Assembly (NCBI RefSeq): GCF_023910635.1
Contig: NZ_JAAVVZ010000011.1
Coordinates: forward strand, 28,866 to 92,865
DNA: 64,000 nt
Direction: 5' to 3'
From: Sphingorhabdus sp.
Lineage (GTDB): Bacteria; Pseudomonadota; Alphaproteobacteria; Sphingomonadales; Sphingomonadaceae
Positions 3,228-15,815 of the stretch are shown piece by piece. Each line of letters opens with the position of its first letter. Position 1 is the first letter of the stretch. The notes beneath the pieces were generated by a model, which was given only the letters and a program-made list of their open reading frames with translations, made no database searches and had not been told where the DNA came from. Made by a program: the position numbers and the translations under genes.

Positions 3228-4084
3228 GGTGTTTACATTCATGCTTCCCAATCGTGTAATTTTCTGATTCAAGCTGCTTGCTGTATGGAGGTCAGCATGA
3301 ATGGATCGACAGGAACTGAGTGACGCGGTTTGGGAGCGGATATCCCCGCATTTGCCGGGCAAGGTGACAGACCCTGGATGCAGTGGGCGAGAAAAATGGG
3401 CAATTTGTGGAAGCTATTCTGTGGCTGGCCCGGTCGGGTGCGCATTGGCGGGTTCTACCGAAGGAGTTTGGTCGGTGGCACACCGTTTACCAGCGCTTTA
3501 ACTGCTGGTGTCGTCGCGGCGTTTGGGAGAGTCTTTTCAAGGTGTTGAGCCAAGACGCCGACTTTGAATACATCCTCGTCGACAGCACGATCGTGCGTGC
3601 CCACCAGCACAGTGCCGGTGCCCAAAAAAAGCGATCAATCCGAAGACCGGTTTGAAGCTCACGCGCTGGGACGGTCAAAAGGCGGCCTGAGCACCAAGGT
3701 TCATGCCGCCACCGATGCGCTTGGCAATCCCGTCCGCTTTATCCTGACGGGCGGCGAACGCAATGACATCACCCAGATCGAAGGCTTGCTCGATGGCCTG
3801 AGGGCAGGTCATGTGCTGGCCGACAAGGGTTATGATGGCCAGCGTGCCATGGACGCTATCGCTGCCACCGGAGCAAAACCCGTCGTCCCACGCAGAACCA
3901 CGACAGCACAGTGGCGCACCTTTGATGCCACGATCTACAAGGATCGCAATCTGATCGAGCGCTTCTTTAGCAAGATCAAACACTTCCGACGCATCGCCAC
4001 ACGATACGACAAGCTCGCCAGAAACTATGCTGGCTTCCTCAATCTCGTCGCAGCACTCAAATGTTGCCGATGAATGTAAACACC
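3228..4084 (+). mobile_element. IS5-family insertion sequence
   Basis: Terminal inverted repeat GGTGTTTACATTCAT (3228-3242) / ATGAATGTAAACACC (4070-4084) flanking IS5-type transposase reading frames. Confidence 0.88.
3301..4073 (+). pseudogene. IS5-family transposase spread over three reading frames (3301.., 3383-3655, 3564-4073)
   Basis: MDRQELSDAVWERISPHLPGKVTDPG / GEKNGQFVEAILWLARSGAHWRVLPKEFGRWHTVYQRF / GRSKGGLSTKVHAATDALGNPVRF...ADKGYD...RNLIERFFSKIKHFRRIATRYDK; two apparent +1 shifts, one at an A7 run (3624-3630). Confidence 0.8.
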
Positions 4085-4254
4085 ACCTAGCTCTGGGCGT
4101 GCTGCGCGATAGACCCTGGAACGACAGTCACCGAAGGTGAAACAAGTTCAGGGTGACGGATAATTTTTTAGAACCTTGCTCCACGGCGCGCCCAGACCCC
4201 AACCCGACAAATCATTTGAGTCTCACCCAAATTCCCATTAAGGGCATATCTTTA

Positions 4255-5250
4255 ATGACATGGACAAAACCCTTCGCCGCCGACAGCTTTCCAAGCGGGT
4301 CGGATGCCTTTCCGCACAAACATTTGCTTGGCATCGCCGGACTTCAGACGTGGGAAATTCTCTACATCCTCAAAGAGGCGGAGCAATGGGTTGCGCTAAA
4401 CCGCGCTGGCGCTGCAAAACATGCTGACACGCTTTCCGGCCTGACAATCATCAACGCCTTTTTTGAAAATTCAACGCGCACCTTATTATCGTTCGAAATC
4501 GCCGGAAAGCGGCTCGGCGCGGACGTCGTGAATATGCACGCGGCGCAGTCGAGCGTGAAAAAGGGCGAAACGCTCATCGACACGGCAATGACGCTTAACG
4601 CCATGCGCGCGGACGCCATTGTGATTCGCCATGGCAGTTCAGGCGCCGTGCAGCTCATCTCCAGCAAAGTCGACTGTCCCGTGCTGAACGCCGGTGACGG
4701 CAGCCACGAACACCCGACTCAAGCCTTGCTCGATGCGCTGACCATCATGCGCCGCAAGGGCAAGGTCGAAGGTCAAACTGTCGTCATTTGCGGCGACGTT
4801 CTGCACAGCCGTGTGGCAAGATCCAATCTGTTTTGCCTAAAATCGCTGGGCGCAGACGTGCGCGTGGTTGCCCCCCCTGCCCTCATGCCAAGCGGCATTG
4901 AAGGCTTTGGCGCCGTTCCCTTTAGCAATTTCGATGCCGCATTGAACGGGGCCGATGTCATTATGATGCTGCGTCTGCAAAGCGAACGGATGCAGGGCGA
5001 TTTCATCCCGTCGCCGCGTGAATATTTCCATCTTTATGGCCTCGACGAACGGCGGTTGGCCTTGGCCAAGCCGGATGCGCTTGTCATGCACCCCGGTCCC
5101 ATGAACCGCGGCGTGGAAATTGCCAGCAGCGTCGCTGATCATGTCGAGCGATCGGCCATTACCGAGCAGGTCGAAATGGGCGTTGCGGTGCGGATGGCTT
5201 GCCTCGACATATTGACCCGCAAGGCGCGTGGTCAGGAGGGGTGGGTATGA
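4255..5250 (+). CDS. pyrB: Aspartate carbamoyltransferase catalytic subunit
   Basis: [47 protein letters not shown]; overlaps the downstream dihydroorotase by ATGA. Confidence 0.95.
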
Positions 5251-6464
5251 CCGGCGTGAACATCATTCAAGGCCATATCATCCTACCCGGCGCGGATAAG
5301 GCAGAGCCGTTGCATCTGCATATCGAGGACGGCAAAATTGCCTCGGTTGGCAAGGCAGCCCCGATTGCCGAACATATCGACGCCAGCGGGTTGATCGTTG
5401 CGCCGGGCATAATTGATTTGGGTGTTTTCAAAACCGATAAACCTGCATTCAGATTTGGCGGGATAACCCGCGCGGCATTGATGCCCGATCAGTCACCTGT
5501 GCATGACGATCCAGCGACCGTCCGCTTTGCCGCATTAAAGGGTAAGCCCGATTTGTGGGTTCACCCCCTTGCCGCCGCAACTCAAGGCCTTGACGGGCTT
5601 CGTATGGCGGAAATTGCGCTAATGAAAGAGGCAGGCGCTGTGGGTGTGGCGACTGGCCGCAAATGGATATCCGATAGCGGCGTCATGCTCCGCATCATGC
5701 ATTATTGCGCAGCTTTAGACCTTCCCGTCATCCTGCATAATGAGGATTCAGGGGTAACCGGCCATGCCGTAGCAACGGCGGGTGAAACGGCCACTTTGCT
5801 TGGCCTTTCAAGCGCGCCAAGCGTTGCCGAAACACTCGCGATCGCCCGCGACCTCATGTTGGCGGAAGAAAGCGGCGCGCATGTGCATTTCCGGCAAGTC
5901 ACCACCGCACGCGGCCTTGACCTGATCCGTACGGCAAAGGCGAAGGGCCTTCGCGTTACCTGCGGAATCACGCCAGCGCATCTGTTCCTGTCGGACAACG
6001 CCATTTCGGATTTCCGCACCTTTGCGCGGCTGTCACCGCCGTTGCGCTCCGAAAGCGACCGGCTGGCGTGCATCGCCGCAATTGCCGATGGCACGATTGA
6101 CGTCATCGCATCGGGCCACGACCCGCGCGGGCCAGAAGACAAGCGCCTGCCTTTTTCCGAAAGCGCGCCTGGCATGGCGGGGGCAGAAACATTGCTGGCG
6201 CTGGCGCTCAACCTCGTGCGCGATAATGTCATCTCAACCGGCCGCATGTTTGAATTGCTCGCGTCGAACCCGGCAAAGATATTAGGATTAAATGCAGGCC
6301 AAATTGTTGAAGGACAAGAGGCCGACTTGATCTTGATCGACCCTGATGCGCCGTGGCAGGTCGATGGTGACCGCATGGCTGCGTTGGCAGGCAACACACC
6401 CTTTGACCGCTTGCCCGTTCAGGGCCGCGTTCGGCAGATGTTAAAAGGCGGCAAGCTTATTTAG
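5247..6464 (+). CDS. pyrC: Dihydroorotase (PyrC/PyrX type)
   Basis: [18 protein letters not shown]...[16 protein letters not shown]...; amidohydrolase-type protein directly after pyrB; lacks the canonical DxHxH metal motif, so it may be the PyrX-like form. Confidence 0.85.
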
Positions 6465-6728
6465 GGTCAGGACCTATTAAATCCACCTTCGCGGCGTCAA
6501 AATGGCAAAGATATCGAAGTAAAATGTCCGCCGCAGGCAGTTATTCTGCCTGCAAGGGCATTTTGTTTCGATATCGAAGCCATTTTGGCGTCCTTCGGAT
6601 TTGACCCATACTGTCCATTGCTACGTTGGCAAGCTTGGACTTAGAACCACTAAGCCCTGCGCTTGCCGCCTTGCACTGAACAGTATGGCCTCAAACCGCG
6701 AAGGTGGATTTAAGTGGTCCTGACCCTA
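6461..6728. repeat. MITE/REPIN-like element copy B (268 bp)
   Basis: TIRs TTAGGGTCAGGACCTATTAAATCCACCTTCGCGG / CCGCGAAGGTGGATTTAAGTGGTCCTGACCCTAG with internal nested inverted repeats; near-identical to 47821-48088. Confidence 0.93.
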
Positions 6729-6749
6729 GCGACATCTCGTTGCGTTTTG

Positions 6750-8027
6750 TTATCGTACTGCGATTTTTAATCTTCCGCCTTGTGCCAACCGCACAGACTG
6801 CGATCCTGTGATTGGAACAACGAAACACGCGCCCCCTTGCGATTTGATTTGCCTGCAGGTTGCGCTGGCACGCGCCGCATCGCCCAACGCCATAGCCGCA
6901 ATACGTGTCAATTTCCGTCCGTTTACAGTGACGGTCGAACTGACCGATTTTAACCCGCGCAATGCGCCATATCGCGCCGCATATCTCTTCCACGCCGCTT
7001 GCGCGCTGGCCGCCGAAGAAAAAGCCCCAAGCTGGATGAGGTAGCTCTTGCCCACAAATGCTGGTCGAGACGCTGGGACTTCTGCCAAACCAAGCTTTGC
7101 AGGCCTATTCGAAACCTTGATCATCGGCTTTTCAACCGCTGCAAAGCCGGCGCTTTGGGCAACTACAGTCGGCGCGATCGCCGCAAGCTCGGTTGCGGGG
7201 TCGGGCGACAATGCGTCAAACGCGGGCGCGGCTGGTACATTATCGGCCACGGCTAATGCAGGGGCGGCGGCATGGTTCAGCGCCAAATGCGCGGGTTGAC
7301 CCAAGTCGGACATGTCCGGCCGAATCTTCAGCAGACCCGCCACGCGCAGGGTGTAGGCGCCAGGTTGCGCAAACTGCGCCCATTCCGCAATATGTTCGTT
7401 TACGGCGTCCTGCGCCATATCTTGCGACGCCATGACGCGGGCATCGCGCCAACGACCGTCCAATGCATATGCCAAAGCCAGATTCTGCCGGGTACGTGAA
7501 GACGCGCTATCATTGCGGACGGCGTCGATCAGAATGCGGATCGCCTCACCGGACCGCCCCGCCAATGCCAAGGTCAGGCCATAATCGCTGACGGGAAGGA
7601 TGGATCGCTGCGAATCGATGAGCGCCACGGCAGATTCGGTGTTGCCTTGGGCAATCCGGCTGAGCGCGAGACTAATGACCGTACGGGGGTCGACTTTCCC
7701 TAGTTCAATCACGTCCATCAACGTCCGTTCGGCGGAGGCAAAACGGCCTTTGGCCATATAGATACGGGCCAAAAGCGCGCGGTAATCTGGGCTTTGCGGT
7801 TCGGCCTCCACAACAAGTTCGGCAAATTGCAGCGCGCGGTCATTCTTGTTTTTGGCAATCGCCTGCTCGGCTTTTTTCGCCCATTGTAACGCCTTCTCGG
7901 GGCTTGCCTGCTTTGCAGATTCCTTGCTTGTTCTAATTGCCCCCGTCGCCGACGCCGTCGGCGTCATAGCCAGTACCGCCACAAAGGCGGTCGACAAGGC
8001 AAGCTTTACGATAAAATTGCTCTTCAT
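6750..8027 (-). CDS. TPR-repeat and SPOR-domain secreted protein
   Basis: Signal peptide MKSNFIVKLALSTAFVAVLAMTPTASA, TPR-like region, C-terminal SYLIQLGAFSSAASAQAAWKRYAARYG...ACFVVPI SPOR domain; an upstream Met at 8057 is possible. Confidence 0.85.
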   Translation of the reverse strand: MKSNFIVKLALSTAFVAVLAMTPTASATGAIRTSKESAKQASPEKALQWAKKAEQAIAKNKNDRALQFAELVVEAEPQSPDYRALLARIYMAKGRFASAERTLMDVIELGKVDPRTVISLALSRIAQGNTESAVALIDSQRSILPVSDYGLTLALAGRSGEAIRILIDAVRNDSASSRTRQNLALAYALDGRWRDARVMASQDMAQDAVNEHIAEWAQFAQPGAYTLRVAGLLKIRPDMSDLGQPAHLALNHAAAPALAVADNVPAAPAFDALSPDPATELAAIAPTVVAQSAGFAAVEKPMIKVSNRPAKLGLAEVPASRPAFVGKSYLIQLGAFSSAASAQAAWKRYAARYGALRGLKSVSSTVTVNGRKLTRIAAMALGDAARASATCRQIKSQGGACFVVPITGSQSVRLAQGGRLKIAVR

Positions 8028-8060
8028 GACATCACCTCTGATATGGTCCAAATTCAAATA

Positions 8061-8684
8061 TCAATGTCTCTTGTCCGGAATTTGGGACGCAAGGAGACCA
8101 ATTTCGGGCATCGATTCGATCAAAGCGTCGAGCGCGGCGGTAACTAACTGCTGCGCCGATTCGTGCTGAACCGCACAAGCCAGCCGGAGCTTCAAATGGC
8201 GCTCACTATCGAGGCGGAGCGTGAATGCAGCTTTGTCTTTCGAGCCGGACTTGGACCGCGCGCGCGACCGCGGTGCATCGGTTTTTCCAAAACGCGAGAT
8301 TGGCCGTGTCACGGGCTCTGGCGTCACAGTGACAATGGTCAAAGCATCGGTCACCAATGCGGGTTCCATCGCAAAGCTGTCAAAGCCAGCTTCTACTTCG
8401 TTATTGGCTTCCATAGCTTGTTCCAAACGGTCTTGCTGATGCTTGACCTCGGGCACCGCGCCCGCCAGCATGTTTGCTCCATGGAAATTGTGATCATAAT
8501 CCATCGGTGTCGACGGATCAGGATCAACATCAAATCCCATATCATTCCATCCCAAGTCATCCTGCGCAATGGAAGCACTCATGTTGCCATTGAACATCGA
8601 AGGACGCCGCATGGCAGGCCGTGCCAGGCCCTTGCGCGCTAGCAAGATGCCGGAAAGAGAAGCGATCGGTTTCAGTTCACCCAT
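8061..8684 (-). CDS. Hypothetical protein with C-terminal RHH-like segment
   Basis: 207 aa ORF; C-term KDKAAFTLRLDSERHLKLRLACAVQHESAQQLVTAALDALIE resembles a ribbon-helix-helix domain; adjacent to a ParA gene. Confidence 0.65.
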   Translation of the reverse strand: MGELKPIASLSGILLARKGLARPAMRRPSMFNGNMSASIAQDDLGWNDMGFDVDPDPSTPMDYDHNFHGANMLAGAVPEVKHQQDRLEQAMEANNEVEAGFDSFAMEPALVTDALTIVTVTPEPVTRPISRFGKTDAPRSRARSKSGSKDKAAFTLRLDSERHLKLRLACAVQHESAQQLVTAALDALIESMPEIGLLASQIPDKRH

Positions 8685-8701
8685 TTTCTTGCCCTCTCCG
8701 G

Positions 8702-9436
8702 TTAGCCAACGACCCGGCGACCGAAGCCACCGTTAGGACGGGCGACAGATACCTGCTGACTGGTTGCGGCGGGCGCGCTGAAAACAGTACGGCGAAAATT
8801 CTTCTCCAAACGGTCGGAAATATAGGACCATAATTGAACAACTTCCTGTGAAGACCGCCCCTTGGGATCGATCTCCATAACCGTGCGGCCATCAATCATC
8901 GACGCTGCAAAATCAATACGTTGATGCAGGGTGATCGGCGCAACTGTACCATGCTGAGAAAGCGCAACAGCGGCCTCAGAGGTAATCCTGGCCTTTGGCG
9001 TTGCGGCATTGACGACGAAGATGAGCGGCTTTCCAGCGCGTTCACACAGGTCGACCGTTGCACCAACGGCCCGCAGGTCATGCGGGCTTGGACGCGTTGG
9101 CACGACAATGATTTCAGCAACTGATATGACGCTTTGGATCGCCATGGTGATCGCCGGTGGCGTATCAATGACCGCAAGCTTAAAGCCCTGTTCTCGCAAA
9201 ATAGCGAGATCAGCGGTCAATCGGGCTACCGTAGTCTGCGCAAAAGCAGGCAAGTCGGCTTCACGTTCGTTCCACCAGTCGGAGAGCGACCCTTGCGGAT
9301 CGATATCGATAAGCACAACGGGCCCGGCGCCTGCCAGTTGCGCCTGAACCGCCAAATGGCCAGATAGGGTTGTTTTACCCGATCCGCCTTTCTGTGATGC
9401 CAATGCGAGAACTCTCACATCATTCCCCTTTTGCAA
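8702..9436 (-). CDS. ParA/MinD-family ATPase
   Basis: VRVLALASQKGGSGKTTLSGHLAVQAQLAGAGPVVLIDIDPQGSLSDWW: deviant Walker A and DxDPQ motifs. Confidence 0.93.
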   Translation of the reverse strand: MQKGNDVRVLALASQKGGSGKTTLSGHLAVQAQLAGAGPVVLIDIDPQGSLSDWWNEREADLPAFAQTTVARLTADLAILREQGFKLAVIDTPPAITMAIQSVISVAEIIVVPTRPSPHDLRAVGATVDLCERAGKPLIFVVNAATPKARITSEAAVALSQHGTVAPITLHQRIDFAASMIDGRTVMEIDPKGRSSQEVVQLWSYISDRLEKNFRRTVFSAPAATSQQVSVARPNGGFGRRVVG

Positions 9437-10024
9437 ATGTTACAAATGGGGGTGTGACAGAACGGGGCTAAAAATATGTTAACGCCGCCTGCAATGGCGC
9501 AATCGGGTTTTATATCGTCATATTGAAATTCCTTAAAAGAAAATCCAAAGGAATTGAACAGTTCTTGAAAGTTTCTTGCTTAAGATATTAATCCAAAACA
9601 TTTACCGAATATATGTTTTTGCATGATAAATTGAGAAACGATATGAGATGTTGTCAATTTGGAGTGCAAAAAATGGGCAGGCGTTCGGATATTGTCAAAC
9701 TGGTAATTGGCTTGTTTGCGTTGATATCCGGCGCAGTCGCGGCAAAGGCGGATACAAAGGCGGGAACCGATGCCTGGTCGCGCGGCGATTATGTGGTTGC
9801 GGTGGAAGAGTGGCGCCAACCGGCACTTGAAGGCGACGCCGAAGCCCAGTTTCATCTTGGTCAGGCCTATAGACTTGGCCGTGGCGTAAAAACCGACCTA
9901 AATACTGCGTTGGATTGGTATCGCAAGGCAGCCGCACAAGGTCATATACAGGCGGGGGACAATTGCGGCCATTTGTTGCATTACCAAAAAAAGGGGAATT
10001 ATATACGAAACTAGACAAAATCGC

Positions 10025-10053
10025 TTGCACTCAACGTCTAATTAAAATATATA
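10025..10053 (+). promoter_or_regulatory. Putative sigma70-like promoter inside the transposon left end
   Basis: TTGCAC - 17 bp - TATATA immediately inside the left TIR and upstream of the transposase ATG at 10080. Confidence 0.5.
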
Positions 10054-10079
10054 ACTAGATAGTAATTGGAGTGAGTTGA

Positions 10080-11027
10080 ATGTCTAAGAAAGCACCCGGC
10101 AAGAGCGAACGGACAGGCCTAACGGTCCTCCAACTTTTCCAGATGTTCCCAGATGAAGCGGCAAGTCGCAAATGGCTTGAAGATATTCGATGGTCGGATG
10201 GTGAGCGGTTTTGCCCACACTGCGGCTCGCTCAAAACAACAGCCGTAAAAAACGAAATTCCGATGCCTTATCACTGTGGCGAATGCCGCCAGTATTTCAG
10301 CGTCAAAACCGGCACGGTGATGCAGTCCAGCAAAGTTGCCCTGCAGAAGTGGGTGATTGCGATGTATCTCATGTCCACCAGCCTCAAGGGCGTATCGAGC
10401 ATGAAGCTGCACCGTGATTTGGGCGTCACGCAAAAGACCGCTTGGATGCTTGCACAGAAAATCCGGCAGGGCTGGATTGACGGCAGCGATCAGCTGACGG
10501 GCAAAGTTGAAGTTGACGAAACCTACGTTGGCGGCAAAGAGCGTAACAAGCACCGGAACAAGCGACTGAATGCTGGTCGCGGCGCAGTCGGTAAAACGGC
10601 TGTTATTGGTGCGAAAGAGCGCAACGGGAAAGTAAAAGTCGCCGTAATCGAGAAAACCGATGCTGCGACGTTGGAGGGTTTTATCTTGAACAGCGTGCAA
10701 ACAGGCGCGACGGTATTTACTGACGAGCATCGGGGCTATAGCGGCCTGTCGAAATCATTCAGCCATCAATCGGTCAAGCACAGCGTCGGTGAATACGTCA
10801 ACGGCATGGCGCACACCAATGGCATTGAAAGTTTCTGGGCGATGCTCAAGCGCGGATATAAAGGCACCTATCACCAGATGAGCGCCAAGCACATCGAGCG
10901 CTACGTCACGGAATTTGCTGGTCGGCATAACGTCAGAGGCTGCGATACCATCGTTCAAATGACGATGCTGGCAAAAGGACTGGATGGTAAACGGTTGCGC
11001 TATGACGATCTGGTAGCGGTGCGATGA
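10080..11027 (+). CDS. IS1595-family (DDE) transposase with N-terminal zinc ribbon
   Basis: CPHCGS...YHCGECRQYFSVKTGTVMQSSKVALQKWVIAMYLMSTSLKGVSSMKLHRDLGVTQKTAWMLAQKIRQGW...VDETYVGGKE...TDEHRGY...HTNGIESFWAMLKRGYKGTYH. Confidence 0.95.
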   Translation: MSKKAPGKSERTGLTVLQLFQMFPDEAASRKWLEDIRWSDGERFCPHCGSLKTTAVKNEIPMPYHCGECRQYFSVKTGTVMQSSKVALQKWVIAMYLMSTSLKGVSSMKLHRDLGVTQKTAWMLAQKIRQGWIDGSDQLTGKVEVDETYVGGKERNKHRNKRLNAGRGAVGKTAVIGAKERNGKVKVAVIEKTDAATLEGFILNSVQTGATVFTDEHRGYSGLSKSFSHQSVKHSVGEYVNGMAHTNGIESFWAMLKRGYKGTYHQMSAKHIERYVTEFAGRHNVRGCDTIVQMTMLAKGLDGKRLRYDDLVAVR

Positions 11028-12898
11028 AAAACGAACGCATCACCGAAGATTTTGTCCGCGACCATTTCAAGAATGACCCGCTGTTCGGGGCCGTTCGGTT
11101 TGATGAACAAAAAACGTCGATTACCAAGGCAAAGTCCTGCCTGTCGAAAGCGTCGAAAAGCATGACGGGCAAATCTGGTTTTCCCGAATTTATCGTTAGT
11201 TTTCCAGCGCTTCCGGATGATATTATCGTTATTGAGTGCAAAGCAGACGCAAAGGCGCATCGAAGCAAATTGGGTGATGATCCTTGCGGATACGCCGTTG
11301 ACGGCGCGCTACACTATTCCGCTTTTCTGGCACAGGAATACAATGTCATATCTATTGCCGTAAGTGGCAGCGATCCGAAAAATCTAAAAATCTCGTCATT
11401 CTATCAAAAGCAGAATGAAACTGAAGTAACAGAAGAAGATGAAAAGCTAATAGGTATATTTTCCTATATCGAACGTCTCGGGGGAGGGGCGCAAGCGCAT
11501 AATATAGAGAGTACAGAAATAACTAAAACTGCGATTGATCTGAACAATGATTTTGACGATTACTCAATAGCCGAATATGAGAGATGCACTATAGTTAGCG
11601 CAATTTTGTTGGCGCTTCACAACCCCGCCTTTAAGAGCTCATACAAGAAAATGGCGTCATCAAAGGAGATGACGCCTACCCCCGAGCGTGTGGCAAAGTT
11701 GATTATTACTGGTATTGGCAACGTGCTTGAGGACAACGAGATTGATGCCGAGCGCGTAAAATCCATGCTTGGGGAATTTCAGAAAATCCGCAACCATGAC
11801 ATCGCCAAATCCGAAAAGATAAAACGCAAAAAAGCCGCAGCAGAGGATGATAACTATGTCCTGCGCAACCTCATCGAACGGCTCGAAAAATCAATTCTAC
11901 CCCTGATTTCAATGGGCGAAAAAGGGTATGATGTTCTCGGTCGCTTCTATCGGGAATTTATCCGTTACGCAGGCTCTGACAAGAAAACGGGGCTAGTGCT
12001 GACGCCGCAGCATATCACCGAGTTTTGCGGGGATTTGGTGAATCTAAACGTCAATGATGTTGTATATGACAGTTGCTGCGGAACGGGCGGCTTTCTGATC
12101 GCGTCAATGAAGCGGCTTATTGGCCTTGCCGGTAACGATGAGATAAAGAAGGGTGAGATCAAAAAGAACCAGCTTATCGGGATTGAAAAGCGAACGGATA
12201 TGTTCACCTTCGCTTGTTCCAATATGATGATGAGCGGTGATGGCAAATCTCATATATATCGTGGTGATTCATTCTCGCCCGACAACACCACGATAATTAA
12301 GGCGCTCAAGCCAACAGTGGCCTTCCTCAATCCGCCTTATAATGTGGGTGAGGATGGACAATTGGCGTTTATCGAGAGCGCGCTGTCATGTCTCCAACCC
12401 GGGGGAAGGTGTGCCGCAATCGTTCAGATGAGCTGCGCAACGTCAACTGGGGCTGCTGCAATACTTGTTCGCGAGCGCTTGCTCAAAGCGCATAAACTGA
12501 CGGGCGTTTTCTCAATGCCAGACGATCTATTTCATCCGGTCGGCGTCATTACTTGCATAATGGTTTTTGAGGCGCATAGCCCGCATCCAGTGGGTTACAA
12601 GACTTTCTTTGGCTACTACAAAGATGATGGGTTTAGGAAAACCAAGCATATTGGCCGCGTAAACAAGGGCCAGTGGGACGCTATAAGGGCAGGCTGGCTA
12701 AGCACATACATCAACCGCGAAACTCAAGCCGGGCTTAGTGTCATGAAGGTAGTTTCCGCATCGGATGAGTGGTGCGCGGAAGCGTATATGGCAACAGATT
12801 ACTCCAAGATCGATCAAACTGACTTTGAAAAGGCGGTTCGAGATTATGCTGTTTACCGGCTGCTAAATCTGGGCACGATAGAGGGTGCTGCACAATGA
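11024..12898 (+). CDS. Fused restriction nuclease / N6-adenine methyltransferase (BcgI-A-like type IIB/IIG RM subunit)
   Basis: N-terminal PE-X15-ECK (PD-(D/E)XK-like), MTase motif I VVYDSCCGTGGFLIAS and motif IV NPPY; ATGA overlap with the transposase stop. Confidence 0.8.
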   Translation: MKNERITEDFVRDHFKNDPLFGAVRFDEQKTSITKAKSCLSKASKSMTGKSGFPEFIVSFPALPDDIIVIECKADAKAHRSKLGDDPCGYAVDGALHYSAFLAQEYNVISIAVSGSDPKNLKISSFYQKQNETEVTEEDEKLIGIFSYIERLGGGAQAHNIESTEITKTAIDLNNDFDDYSIAEYERCTIVSAILLALHNPAFKSSYKKMASSKEMTPTPERVAKLIITGIGNVLEDNEIDAERVKSMLGEFQKIRNHDIAKSEKIKRKKAAAEDDNYVLRNLIERLEKSILPLISMGEKGYDVLGRFYREFIRYAGSDKKTGLVLTPQHITEFCGDLVNLNVNDVVYDSCCGTGGFLIASMKRLIGLAGNDEIKKGEIKKNQLIGIEKRTDMFTFACSNMMMSGDGKSHIYRGDSFSPDNTTIIKALKPTVAFLNPPYNVGEDGQLAFIESALSCLQPGGRCAAIVQMSCATSTGAAAILVRERLLKAHKLTGVFSMPDDLFHPVGVITCIMVFEAHSPHPVGYKTFFGYYKDDGFRKTKHIGRVNKGQWDAIRAGWLSTYINRETQAGLSVMKVVSASDEWCAEAYMATDYSKIDQTDFEKAVRDYAVYRLLNLGTIEGAAQ

Positions 12899-13851
12899 CG
12901 GCCATTGTCTCTGAAATTTTTGATATTCGTTACGGACATTCGCTAGAATTGAATGGCCTTGTCCAGACATCTCTTGATAACGGGATAGCCTTCATTTCTC
13001 GAAAAGCTGGCGACAATGGAATTTCAGCATATGTGGAGGCAGTTGATGACCTTGAACCAGCAAAAGCGGGGGAAATTTCCTGTGCGCTTAGTGGGAATGG
13101 TGTCTTAACAACCTGCCTGCAAGAGCGCCCGTTTTACACAGGTTATCACGTTGCGATATTGCGACCGAAGCAAACAATGTCGAAAGCTGAAATACTATTC
13201 TACTGTCTTTGCATCAAGTCCAACCGTTACCGATACAGCTATGGGCGGCAGGCGAACAAAACCCTTGGCCGCTTGATCGTGCCGTCACCAAACGAATTGC
13301 CCGAATGGGTAAATTCATCAAATTTGGAGCCATTTGAAGATGCTAAATCCGCAATTTCCGCAGGAATGCCGGAAACAGCGCCCCATGAAATATGGTCGGA
13401 TTTTAGATATGATGAAATCTTTGATATCGAGCGAGGGAAAGGGCCAAGAAAGGCTACTTTGACAAGCCACGGCGCCACACCGTTTATTTCGTCCACCGAT
13501 AGCAACAATGGCCTGACAGGTTACACCTCCGAAAAACCACGGCACAGTGGAAATGTTATCACGGTAAATCGCAACGGCAGTGTTGGAGAAGCATTTTACC
13601 AACCCATACCTTTTTCCTCCACCGAGGATGTTCATGTTTTTAAGCCAAAATTCGACATGAACAAATACATCGGAATCTTTTTAGCAACACTTATCCGGCA
13701 AGAAAAGTATCGCTTCAACTATGGGAGAAAATGGGGGTTAGGTCGCATGAATGAATCCATCATCAGGCTACCGGTCACGACGGACGGGCAACCTGATTGG
13801 GATTTTATGGAAAGATATGTTAAAGCGCTACCATATAGCGTTAGTTTGTAA
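12895..13851 (+). CDS. Type I/IIB specificity subunit (HsdS/BcgI-B-like), two target-recognition halves
   Basis: Two HsdS-like repeats: SEIFDIRYGHSLELN...YRYSYGRQANKTLGRLIVPSP..LPEWV and DEIFDIERGKGPRK...YRFNYGRKWGLGRMNESIIRLPV..QPDW; ATGA overlap with the RM subunit stop. Confidence 0.85.
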   Translation: MTAIVSEIFDIRYGHSLELNGLVQTSLDNGIAFISRKAGDNGISAYVEAVDDLEPAKAGEISCALSGNGVLTTCLQERPFYTGYHVAILRPKQTMSKAEILFYCLCIKSNRYRYSYGRQANKTLGRLIVPSPNELPEWVNSSNLEPFEDAKSAISAGMPETAPHEIWSDFRYDEIFDIERGKGPRKATLTSHGATPFISSTDSNNGLTGYTSEKPRHSGNVITVNRNGSVGEAFYQPIPFSSTEDVHVFKPKFDMNKYIGIFLATLIRQEKYRFNYGRKWGLGRMNESIIRLPVTTDGQPDWDFMERYVKALPYSVSL

Positions 13852-13860
13852 GGCAAGAGA

Positions 13861-14004
13861 ATGACCGATAAGCCACCCGCCCAAAAAGGCCGTCCAGTCA
13901 CGAACAAACTGGATCAAATTCCAGCCTCGCCAGAGGACATCGCCAAAGCTATTTTTCGGTCTGCCGACAAGAAAATCAAAAAGCCGAAACCGAAGCCGAA
14001 TTAA
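13861..14004 (+). CDS. Small basic 47-aa protein at the right end of the transposon
   Basis: MTDKPPAQKGRPVTNKLDQIPASPEDIAKAIFRSADKKIKKPKPKPN, 10 bp after the S-subunit stop, same strand; below the ORF-track length cutoff. Confidence 0.6.
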   Translation: MTDKPPAQKGRPVTNKLDQIPASPEDIAKAIFRSADKKIKKPKPKPN

Positions 14005-14556
14005 ATGGCTTGTCTAGTTTCGTATATAATTCCCAAAAAAAGTATAATGAAGCACTTCCGTTTCTAATCGCATCCTCGGACCGCGGCGAACCGCGCGCGC
14101 AATATCTGTTGGCAACCGAATTGTTCAACGGCGTCAACATCGAAAAGGACTGGATCCGTGCCTATGCAATGATGACGCGCGCTGCATCGGCGGGCATAGC
14201 ACCTGCGTCACGCAGCTTAGCGCTCATGGACCAATATATCCCGGCTGAACAAAGGCAGGCGGGAATCTTGCGCGCGCGTGCACTGGATCAAAGCGCCGAC
14301 GGTGCACGCGGGGCGCAGGTCGATGGTCTTGCGTTGGACAGTCGCTCGCGTGAATCGGTTACGCTTGCTCCCGTATCAATGGGAGTGGCGGTTTCGGCAA
14401 AGCGCGCATCGGACTCAGTCGCTGACGAAAAATGGCGCATTCAGCTTGGCGCGTTCAGCCATGCCGCCAATGCAAAAAAGCTTTGGACGAAAATTGCCAA
14501 GGATATACCCAGGCTGGCGACGATGAAGCCAATCCTGAAAAGCGACGGCGCGCTTA

Positions 14557-15727
14557 TACCAACCTGCAATGATCATAACCCACTGGCCCATTTGCGGTGC
14601 CCGATGGTCATAATGCGCCAAGGCTGATCTATGAGTTTGTTCCACGCCTCGCAGCAGAGGTCGACGATATTGTCGTGGGAAGTGAACACCCGGTTGGAGA
14701 GCCAGTTGTCGCGCATGAACTGCCAGATATTCTCAACCGGGTTGAGTTCAGGACATTTGGCCGGAAGCGCGATGATGCTGATATTGCCGGGAACATCCAG
14801 CTTGTCAGTCATATGCCAACCGGCTTGATCCATCAGTATAACAGCGTGAGCGCCAGGAGCGACGGCGAGCGCTATTTCTGTCAGATGGAGTGTCATGGTT
14901 TCGGTATTGCAGAACGGCAGCACCAGCCCCGCGCCCTTGCCGTGCTCCGGGCAGATTGCGCCGAAGATATAGGCCGATTTGGTCCGCTGGTCTTTGGGTG
15001 CCGATGGCCGCGTCCCGCGTCTGGCCCAACGCCGCGTGATCTTGTTCTTCTGGCCAATCCGCGCTTCGTCCTGGAACCAAATCTCTATCGGCGTGCCCTT
15101 CGGGAGAGTTGCTCTGACCTTTGCAAGCTCGGCGGCAAAGCCCCCTTTTTAAAGGCCTCCATCGCAAGCTCGTTCTGGGCGTAGTGGCGAGGCCGCGCCG
15201 TCAGCTTGACATAGCCCAGTCTCTTTAGCTCACGCCCCACGGTCGTTGCATCAAGCGAGACAGCAAATTCGTAATGAAGCCACTGGACCAAGTCGACCAG
15301 CCGCCAGCGAACGACGCCATGGATCGCCGGGATCGGGCCGCACTCGACCATTTCGACAAGCGCGCGGCGCTGGGCATCATTGAGCAGCGACTGTCTTCCC
15401 GGGGCCTTGCCATCGAGCAGCCCATCGGGACCTCGGGCGTTGAACCTCACCACCCAGTCACGCACGATCTGTAAGCCCACCCCGCCGATCCGCGCCGCCC
15501 TTGTCCGGCTGCCACCGTCGTAGATCTCGGCCAATGCCAAAAGCCGGCGGGCCTGGTTCGCACTTTTCGACTTCCGCGCCAGTCGCCTCAAGGCAGTGCC
15601 GTCAAAATCATCCCGCAAGCTAATCGCTGATCCCATGTCACGTCCTCCAAATGAAGAACAACATAGAATCAGACTTTCCACCGTTTGGGAATCCCAAATC
15701 TGAGTCAGCCTCACCGCAGCTTGGTAT
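14557..15727 (-). mobile_element. IS630-family insertion sequence
   Basis: IS630-type transposase; imperfect end repeats TACCAACCTGCAATGA (left) vs TACCAAGCTGCGGTGA (reverse complement of right end); flanked by TA/TTA consistent with TA-target insertion. Confidence 0.85.
14573..15636 (-). CDS. IS630-family transposase, two overlapping frames with a putative -1 frameshift
   Basis: ORF1 MGSAISLRDDFDGTALRRLARKSKSANQARRLLALAEIYDG...AMEAFKKG; -1 frame continues GFAAELAKVRATLPKGTPIEIWFQDEARIGQKNKITRRW...MDQAGWH...PELNPVENIW. Confidence 0.88.
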
Positions 15728-15815
15728 TACCCGGCTACAAGCAGGGCCATTCGCCAGCAAAGCGGACGCCGAGGCAATCTGTAAAAAGTTGAAGGCAAGC
15801 GGGCAGCCATGCCTC

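Follow-up and report, generated by a model that had tools for sequence, protein, structure and literature searches.

The window, a 64,000-nucleotide stretch of Sphingorhabdus DNA, very probably contains an autonomous IS1595-family transposon that carries a complete Type IIB (BcgI-like) restriction-modification (R-M) operon as cargo, a reading that draws on sequence comparison and on predicted protein folds. Both passenger-carrying IS1595 elements and mobile R-M systems are already known; the interesting part is the family-level pattern of R-M carriage. Specifically, comparison across genomes assigns the window element to a branch of IS1595 transposons with a standard chassis (terminal inverted repeat, transposase, cargo slot, usually a small 3' peptide gene, terminal inverted repeat), into which unrelated kinds of R-M system appear to have been installed many times. 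The borders of the element and the host gene that it interrupts are as follows.

9673-9993, forward strand: 5' part of the interrupted host gene (Sel1-repeat part; Pfam Sel1 1e-10), whose frame resumes at 14043
9986-9993, no strand: left 8-bp target duplication AAAAAAAG, with an identical copy at 14035-14042
9994-10018, forward strand: left terminal inverted repeat (TIR), 25 bp, 100% complementary to 14010-14034
14010-14034, reverse strand: right TIR, 25 bp, complementary to the left TIR at 25/25 positions
14035-14042, no strand: right 8-bp target duplication AAAAAAAG, read directly from the sequence
14043-14547, forward strand: 3' part of the interrupted host gene (Sel1 and the start of the SPOR domain; Pfam SPOR and Sel1)

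The unit thus delimited spans 4041 bp (9994-14034), and an inverted repeat that is perfect over 25 bp and directly adjoined by an 8-bp duplication far exceeds what chance would produce. These ends had been described in the first-pass annotation, and both they and the listed content of the unit (a transposase, a nuclease-methyltransferase fusion, an S subunit and a 47-aa ORF) held up, with the same coordinates and sizes. When the element and one copy of the duplication are removed, a single 328-aa Sel1/SPOR frame runs across the junction, and in relatives from the genus, homologues of the host gene read through the insertion point without interruption (G1032, for example, with 60% identity across query residues 6-273). 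A composite transposon was considered and rejected, as one transposase gene lies within one TIR pair, not two flanking IS copies. Separately, an IS630-like element (two ORFs with DDE_3 and HTH domains) lies at 14548-15735 within the SPOR part of the same host gene, and SPOR sequence picks up again past it at about 15651, the ends of this element being approximate; the host gene has thus been interrupted twice.

The genes inside the element all lie on the forward strand and follow one another closely.

10080-11027, forward strand: IS1595-family DDE transposase, 315 aa (Pfam DDE_Tnp_IS1595 8.8e-44 and Zn_ribbon_IS1595; NCBIfam transpos_IS1595)
11024-12898, forward strand: RM subunit, 624 aa, with an N-terminal PD-(D/E)xK-type nuclease and an N6-adenine methyltransferase (Pfam N6_Mtase 8.6e-29; PADLOC REase_MTase_IIG 3e-102; AlphaFold model; Foldseek match to BsaXI)
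11183-11242, forward strand: predicted nuclease active-site strip P54-E55-F56 ... E71-C72-K73, from conservation in 49 homologues
12068-12340, forward strand: methyltransferase motifs I (DSCCGTGGF) and IV (NPPY), from residues invariant in 49 homologues
12895-13851, forward strand: S subunit, 318 aa, with two target-recognition domains (TRDs) (Pfam Methylase_S 7.2e-22; PADLOC Specificity_II; fold)
13861-14004, forward strand: 47-aa ORF with RGRP-like and PEDIAKAIF segments, a probable chassis gene (homologues in relatives; motif in elements with other cargo)

The transposase reaches 196.6 bits against the NCBIfam transpos_IS1595 cut-off of 75, and its DDE_Tnp_IS1595 domain and N-terminal zinc ribbon likewise lie above the curated Pfam and NCBIfam cut-offs, which together with the TIRs and the 8-bp duplication confirms the earlier assignment to the IS1595 type. 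Relatives of the element also have duplications of 8 bp, and across the elements these duplications are 81% A+T compared with 42% in the flanks, a difference matched in 0/5000 resamplings.

The cargo, in turn, was filed as a BcgI/BsaXI-like Type IIB system on the strength of its sequence, its catalytic motifs and its predicted fold, in agreement with the initial classification. Nuclease and N6-adenine methyltransferase are joined in one polypeptide and accompanied by a separate S subunit with two TRDs, and the PADLOC models for Type IIG/IIB RM proteins match the 624-aa protein along its entire length. The AlphaFold model of RM (pLDDT 88) finds full-length Foldseek matches that include BsaXI, BpuSI and DrdV, an alignment profile of RM matches the solved BsaXI RM chain (E 1.3e-9), and the model of the S subunit matches HsdS and BsaXI S. 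A phage phi-42 record titled restriction modification system provides a further comparison, with identities of 31% for RM (4e-70) and 29% for S (3e-29), both halves of the window S aligning to its S subunit. The first-pass annotation had singled out the identity of the N-terminal region and the integrity of the methyltransferase as the points on which this reading could fail. At the former, a GxPEF...ECK strip was found in which P54, E71, C72 and K73 are invariant and E55 is conserved in at least 90% of the 49 homologues, with a motif of the same kind in phi-42 RM; in the latter, D349, G353, F357 and N436-P-P-Y439 are invariant in the same set.

Purifying selection on the R-M genes and the transposase is indicated by dN/dS values of about 0.05-0.11 for transposase, RM and S, calculated from unsaturated pairs only, as most pairs that include the window element have reached saturation at synonymous sites. 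Certain fused RM proteins are known to be inactive, and it is conceivable that the R-M genes act as an orphan methyltransferase or epigenetic regulator only, with a silent nuclease and an element that gains by methylation alone. This is very unlikely, given that E71, C72 and K73 are invariant in the homologues, that the predicted nuclease fold is intact and that the entire RM protein is under purifying selection in the measurable pairs.

The data are compatible with a model in which the transposase would bind the TIRs and insert the whole unit at A/T-rich sites. A promoter scan of the element revealed nothing above background and no excess over shuffles. Expression would come from the transposase side; the start of RM overlaps the transposase stop (ATGA), and such ATGA overlaps could couple the translation of RM and S from the transposase transcript. 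Subsequently, RM and S would assemble into an (RM)2S-type complex, which would methylate a bipartite site and, where the DNA is unmethylated, cleave it on either side. Because both activities would reside in one complex, the cargo could become established in a new host with no need for a separate schedule in which the methylase comes first. The element may then be favoured in two ways, as cells that lose the cargo would be killed (post-segregational maintenance) and incoming phage or plasmid DNA would be restricted.

Searching 85,462 species genomes with RM as the query yielded 80 loci, and the order transposase, RM, S, small ORF recurs in L006/L149, L010/L119, L011, L012 and L013, the last with a broken transposase. 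Loci of this kind had been named in advance as a possible weak point, should they lack TIR and duplication boundaries; the relatives proved to be bounded, with TIRs nearly identical to those of the window element (its left 25 bp are identical to the left ends of L010 and L011) and with different 8-bp duplications. Exact duplications are present in L010 (CTTTTTTT), L011 (TTTTTTTA) and the distant L076 (TTTTTTTA), and L149 has TAAATAAA, provided that its left TIR is taken as one G short. More distant IS1595 transposases are coupled to BcgI-like systems in L076, in L015 (candidate duplication CATTGACA, one TIR mismatch) and in L044, which belongs to the IS1595 family by NCBIfam and has a 26-bp perfect TIR and the duplication TTTTTTTT. 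In L044, a masked stretch at about 5743-5995 lies between transposase and RM and is flanked by repeated HSLT-coding sequence.

Neither a second copy of the element nor a second copy of its TIR was found in the 3.05-Mb host genome, and no strain-level pair with and without the element was seen, so that the mobility of the window copy is inferred. The single copy, together with transposases that are frameshifted or truncated in other lineages, would fit a dead relic, that is, a one-off capture fixed in place in which the R-M genes serve as a chromosomal defense system inside an old IS. The ends of the window element are nevertheless still perfect, its transposase has an intact frame and shows purifying selection among relatives, and elements of the same order occur at other sites with other duplications, all of which makes a relic unlikely and argues for the autonomous transposon. 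Spread between cells raises a further alternative, in which the unit would be an integrative mobilizable element comparable to the IS1595-type tISCpe8 and MTnSag1, its transfer origin having escaped detection. Such mobilizable IS1595-type elements are described in PMC5704250, and the near relatives are spread over several orders and classes: L010 is from a Rhizobiales record and L013 from Stagnimonas aquatica, and their RM proteins are 90% identical, which shows transfer between distant hosts. The element has no relaxase-like ORF, however, and little space outside its ORFs, and mobilization is improbable compared with an autonomous transposon. Close RM relatives were found on neither plasmids nor phages, the best RM identities being 40% and 32%, respectively. 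A 4054-bp 'Bacteriophage sp.' record was set aside as a relative of similar size, as its BcgI-like system lies beside toxin-antitoxin-like ORFs and lacks an IS1595 transposase in the expected place.

The RM tree and the transposase tree conflict, most clearly at L015, and vehicle and cargo have thus been re-paired. The closest RM (L009, 75% identity) has no transposase nearby and is nested in a transposase-bearing clade, and is thus cargo that has left its vehicle; since L005/L150, L013 and L014, also among the eight closest RM relatives, have broken transposases, the cargo can evidently outlive the vehicle. The S subunit, for its part, evolves by exchange of recognition domains between elements: L011 S has TRD1 in common with L149 (83%) and TRD2 in common with L010 (80%), the other halves matching at 44-48%. 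Through such exchange, specificity changes and the vehicle is kept.

A cargo-blind search, in which the transposase alone served as query and elements were delimited by TIR plus duplication, returned about 30 elements, 1.7-4.5 kb in size, from genomes other than that of the window; ten of these, by our count, hold a methyltransferase plus a nuclease. These comprise Type IIB cargo (L119), XcyI-like cargo whose methylase match falls below the Pfam cut-off (L121), NotI-like cargo (L122), a GIY-YIG nuclease with a C5-methylase (L127), BglII-like cargo (L131), methylase-HNH fusions (L139, L143, L144 and L188, of which L143 and L144 are closely related and from the same genome) and a single-chain HSDR_N/N6_Mtase/Methylase_S protein of the IIG kind (L180). 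L124 and L146 also carry R-M cargo, with no matching duplication; further elements hold KilA-N, P63C, EamA-like or unknown ORFs. The branch therefore carries at least six unrelated Type II kinds (BglII, NotI, XcyI, GIY-YIG, HNH, methylase-HNH fusions and single-chain IIG), and while the earlier view of R-M genes as transposon cargo stands, such carriage is a recurrent feature of the branch and no one-off event. In the orthodox two-gene systems (L121, L122, L127, L131 and L146), the methylase lies 5' of the nuclease, and the start of the cargo gene overlaps the transposase stop or lies right beside it in the majority of R-M elements (offsets of -4, -8 and -1, in a few cases +2 to +12), the exceptions being L180, L076 and L188.

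R-M cargo does move as a unit, as seen in G597, where a BglII-type element of 2748 bp is present in four copies (L131-L134) that differ by 0-1 base. Two of them have exact duplications (AATTTTAA and TTTTTTTA) and two are mismatched; as one flank of L132 matches the opposite flank of L133, the copies may have recombined with each other. At L083, RM, S and a 64-aa ORF lie between perfect 25-bp IS1595-type TIRs (5870-8984, duplication TTAAAAAT) with no transposase; relatives of the IS1595 transposase are present elsewhere in that genome, broken or in pieces, and the cassette could be mobilized in trans.

The view of R-M systems as selfish mobile units has a long history, although the engine is often unknown. 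Composite or IS-linked movement of R-M genes has been reviewed (PMC3031569), and R-M units bounded by inverted repeats, with short duplications of the target, have been described (Furuta 2010, as cited in PMC3874152). The window element resembles these cases in that R-M genes behave as a mobile unit with a target duplication, and differs from them in having its transposase inside and identified; the L083 cassette suggests that transposases of the IS1595 type could supply the engine that some transposase-free R-M units lack. Passenger genes are likewise known from IS1595 elements (ISsaga paper, PMC3129680), among them the transporter IS (tIS) such as tISCpe8 and MTnSag1/tISSag10, which resemble the window element in combining an IS1595 transposase, inverted-repeat ends and passengers in a single unit. 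Their passengers, according to PMC5704250, are antibiotic resistance with mobilization, whereas the window element carries a complete R-M operon and its branch many unrelated R-M systems. BcgI, BsaXI and the phi-42 system share with the window cargo a fused nuclease-methyltransferase and a separate S subunit with two TRDs, and motifs and fold agree; their genes are described as host or phage genes, whereas the window operon is transposon cargo that overlaps the transposase gene. The open-access papers searched yielded no description of IS1595 units with R-M cargo; ISfinder, REBASE, Siguier 2009 and Furuta 2010, outside this scope, may list individual members. The element group offers a concrete, testable route for the spread of R-M systems: as engine, cargo slot and ends are defined and common to unrelated R-M types, movement, establishment in naive hosts, addiction and phage defense can all be tested in one small unit.

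The 47-aa ORF is probably a chassis gene of the transposon group, as related short peptides accompany other cargoes. Homologues lie at the same place, 3' of S, in six Type IIB relatives (the L150 copy is altered), with dN/dS of 0.09-0.27 in unsaturated pairs, and a short motif from the ORF occurs in 12 elements with other cargo versus 1 match in about twice as much flanking sequence, a count that is not blind, as some ten of the peptides had been inspected before the pattern was drawn up. With a profile made only from the Type IIB elements, the short ORFs of other elements gave no significant match (best E 0.1). As such, the four-ORF content of the first-pass annotation is retained, but the motif count speaks against this ORF being part of the R-M operon. 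A stretch similar to it lies at the N-terminus of the methylase in two elements, L122 (found by pattern) and L131 (found by eye). Its RGRP segment presumably resembles an AT-hook core; alongside the A/T-rich targets, this likeness is a lead only. It is possible, though we hold it with less than even confidence, that the branch is a dedicated R-M vehicle, in which a fixed chassis with a translation-coupled slot behind the transposase would be combined with a conserved peptide that helps the transposase, perhaps in the choice of A/T-run targets or by linking transposition to cargo, and that is fused to the methyltransferase in L122 and L131, and with transposase-free cassettes mobilized in trans.

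Several further ORFs were observed on related elements. L152 (oriented 3804-7726) is an IS1595 element that encodes an 807-aa N6-methylase/IIG-like protein and, after it, a ParE/RelE-like toxin whose C-terminus is extended; an obvious antitoxin gene is lacking. A protein of 141-147 aa follows the transposase in L139 (2978-3400), L144 (5549-5971) and L145 (2987-3427), with no Pfam match and, for L139, no PADLOC match; it precedes the methylase-HNH gene in L139 and L144, and no methylase gene was found in L145. Finally, L170, L171, L172 and L179 have ORFs that begin at the transposase stop with an opening segment resembling the small chassis peptide (P63C in L170, Bro-N in L179).
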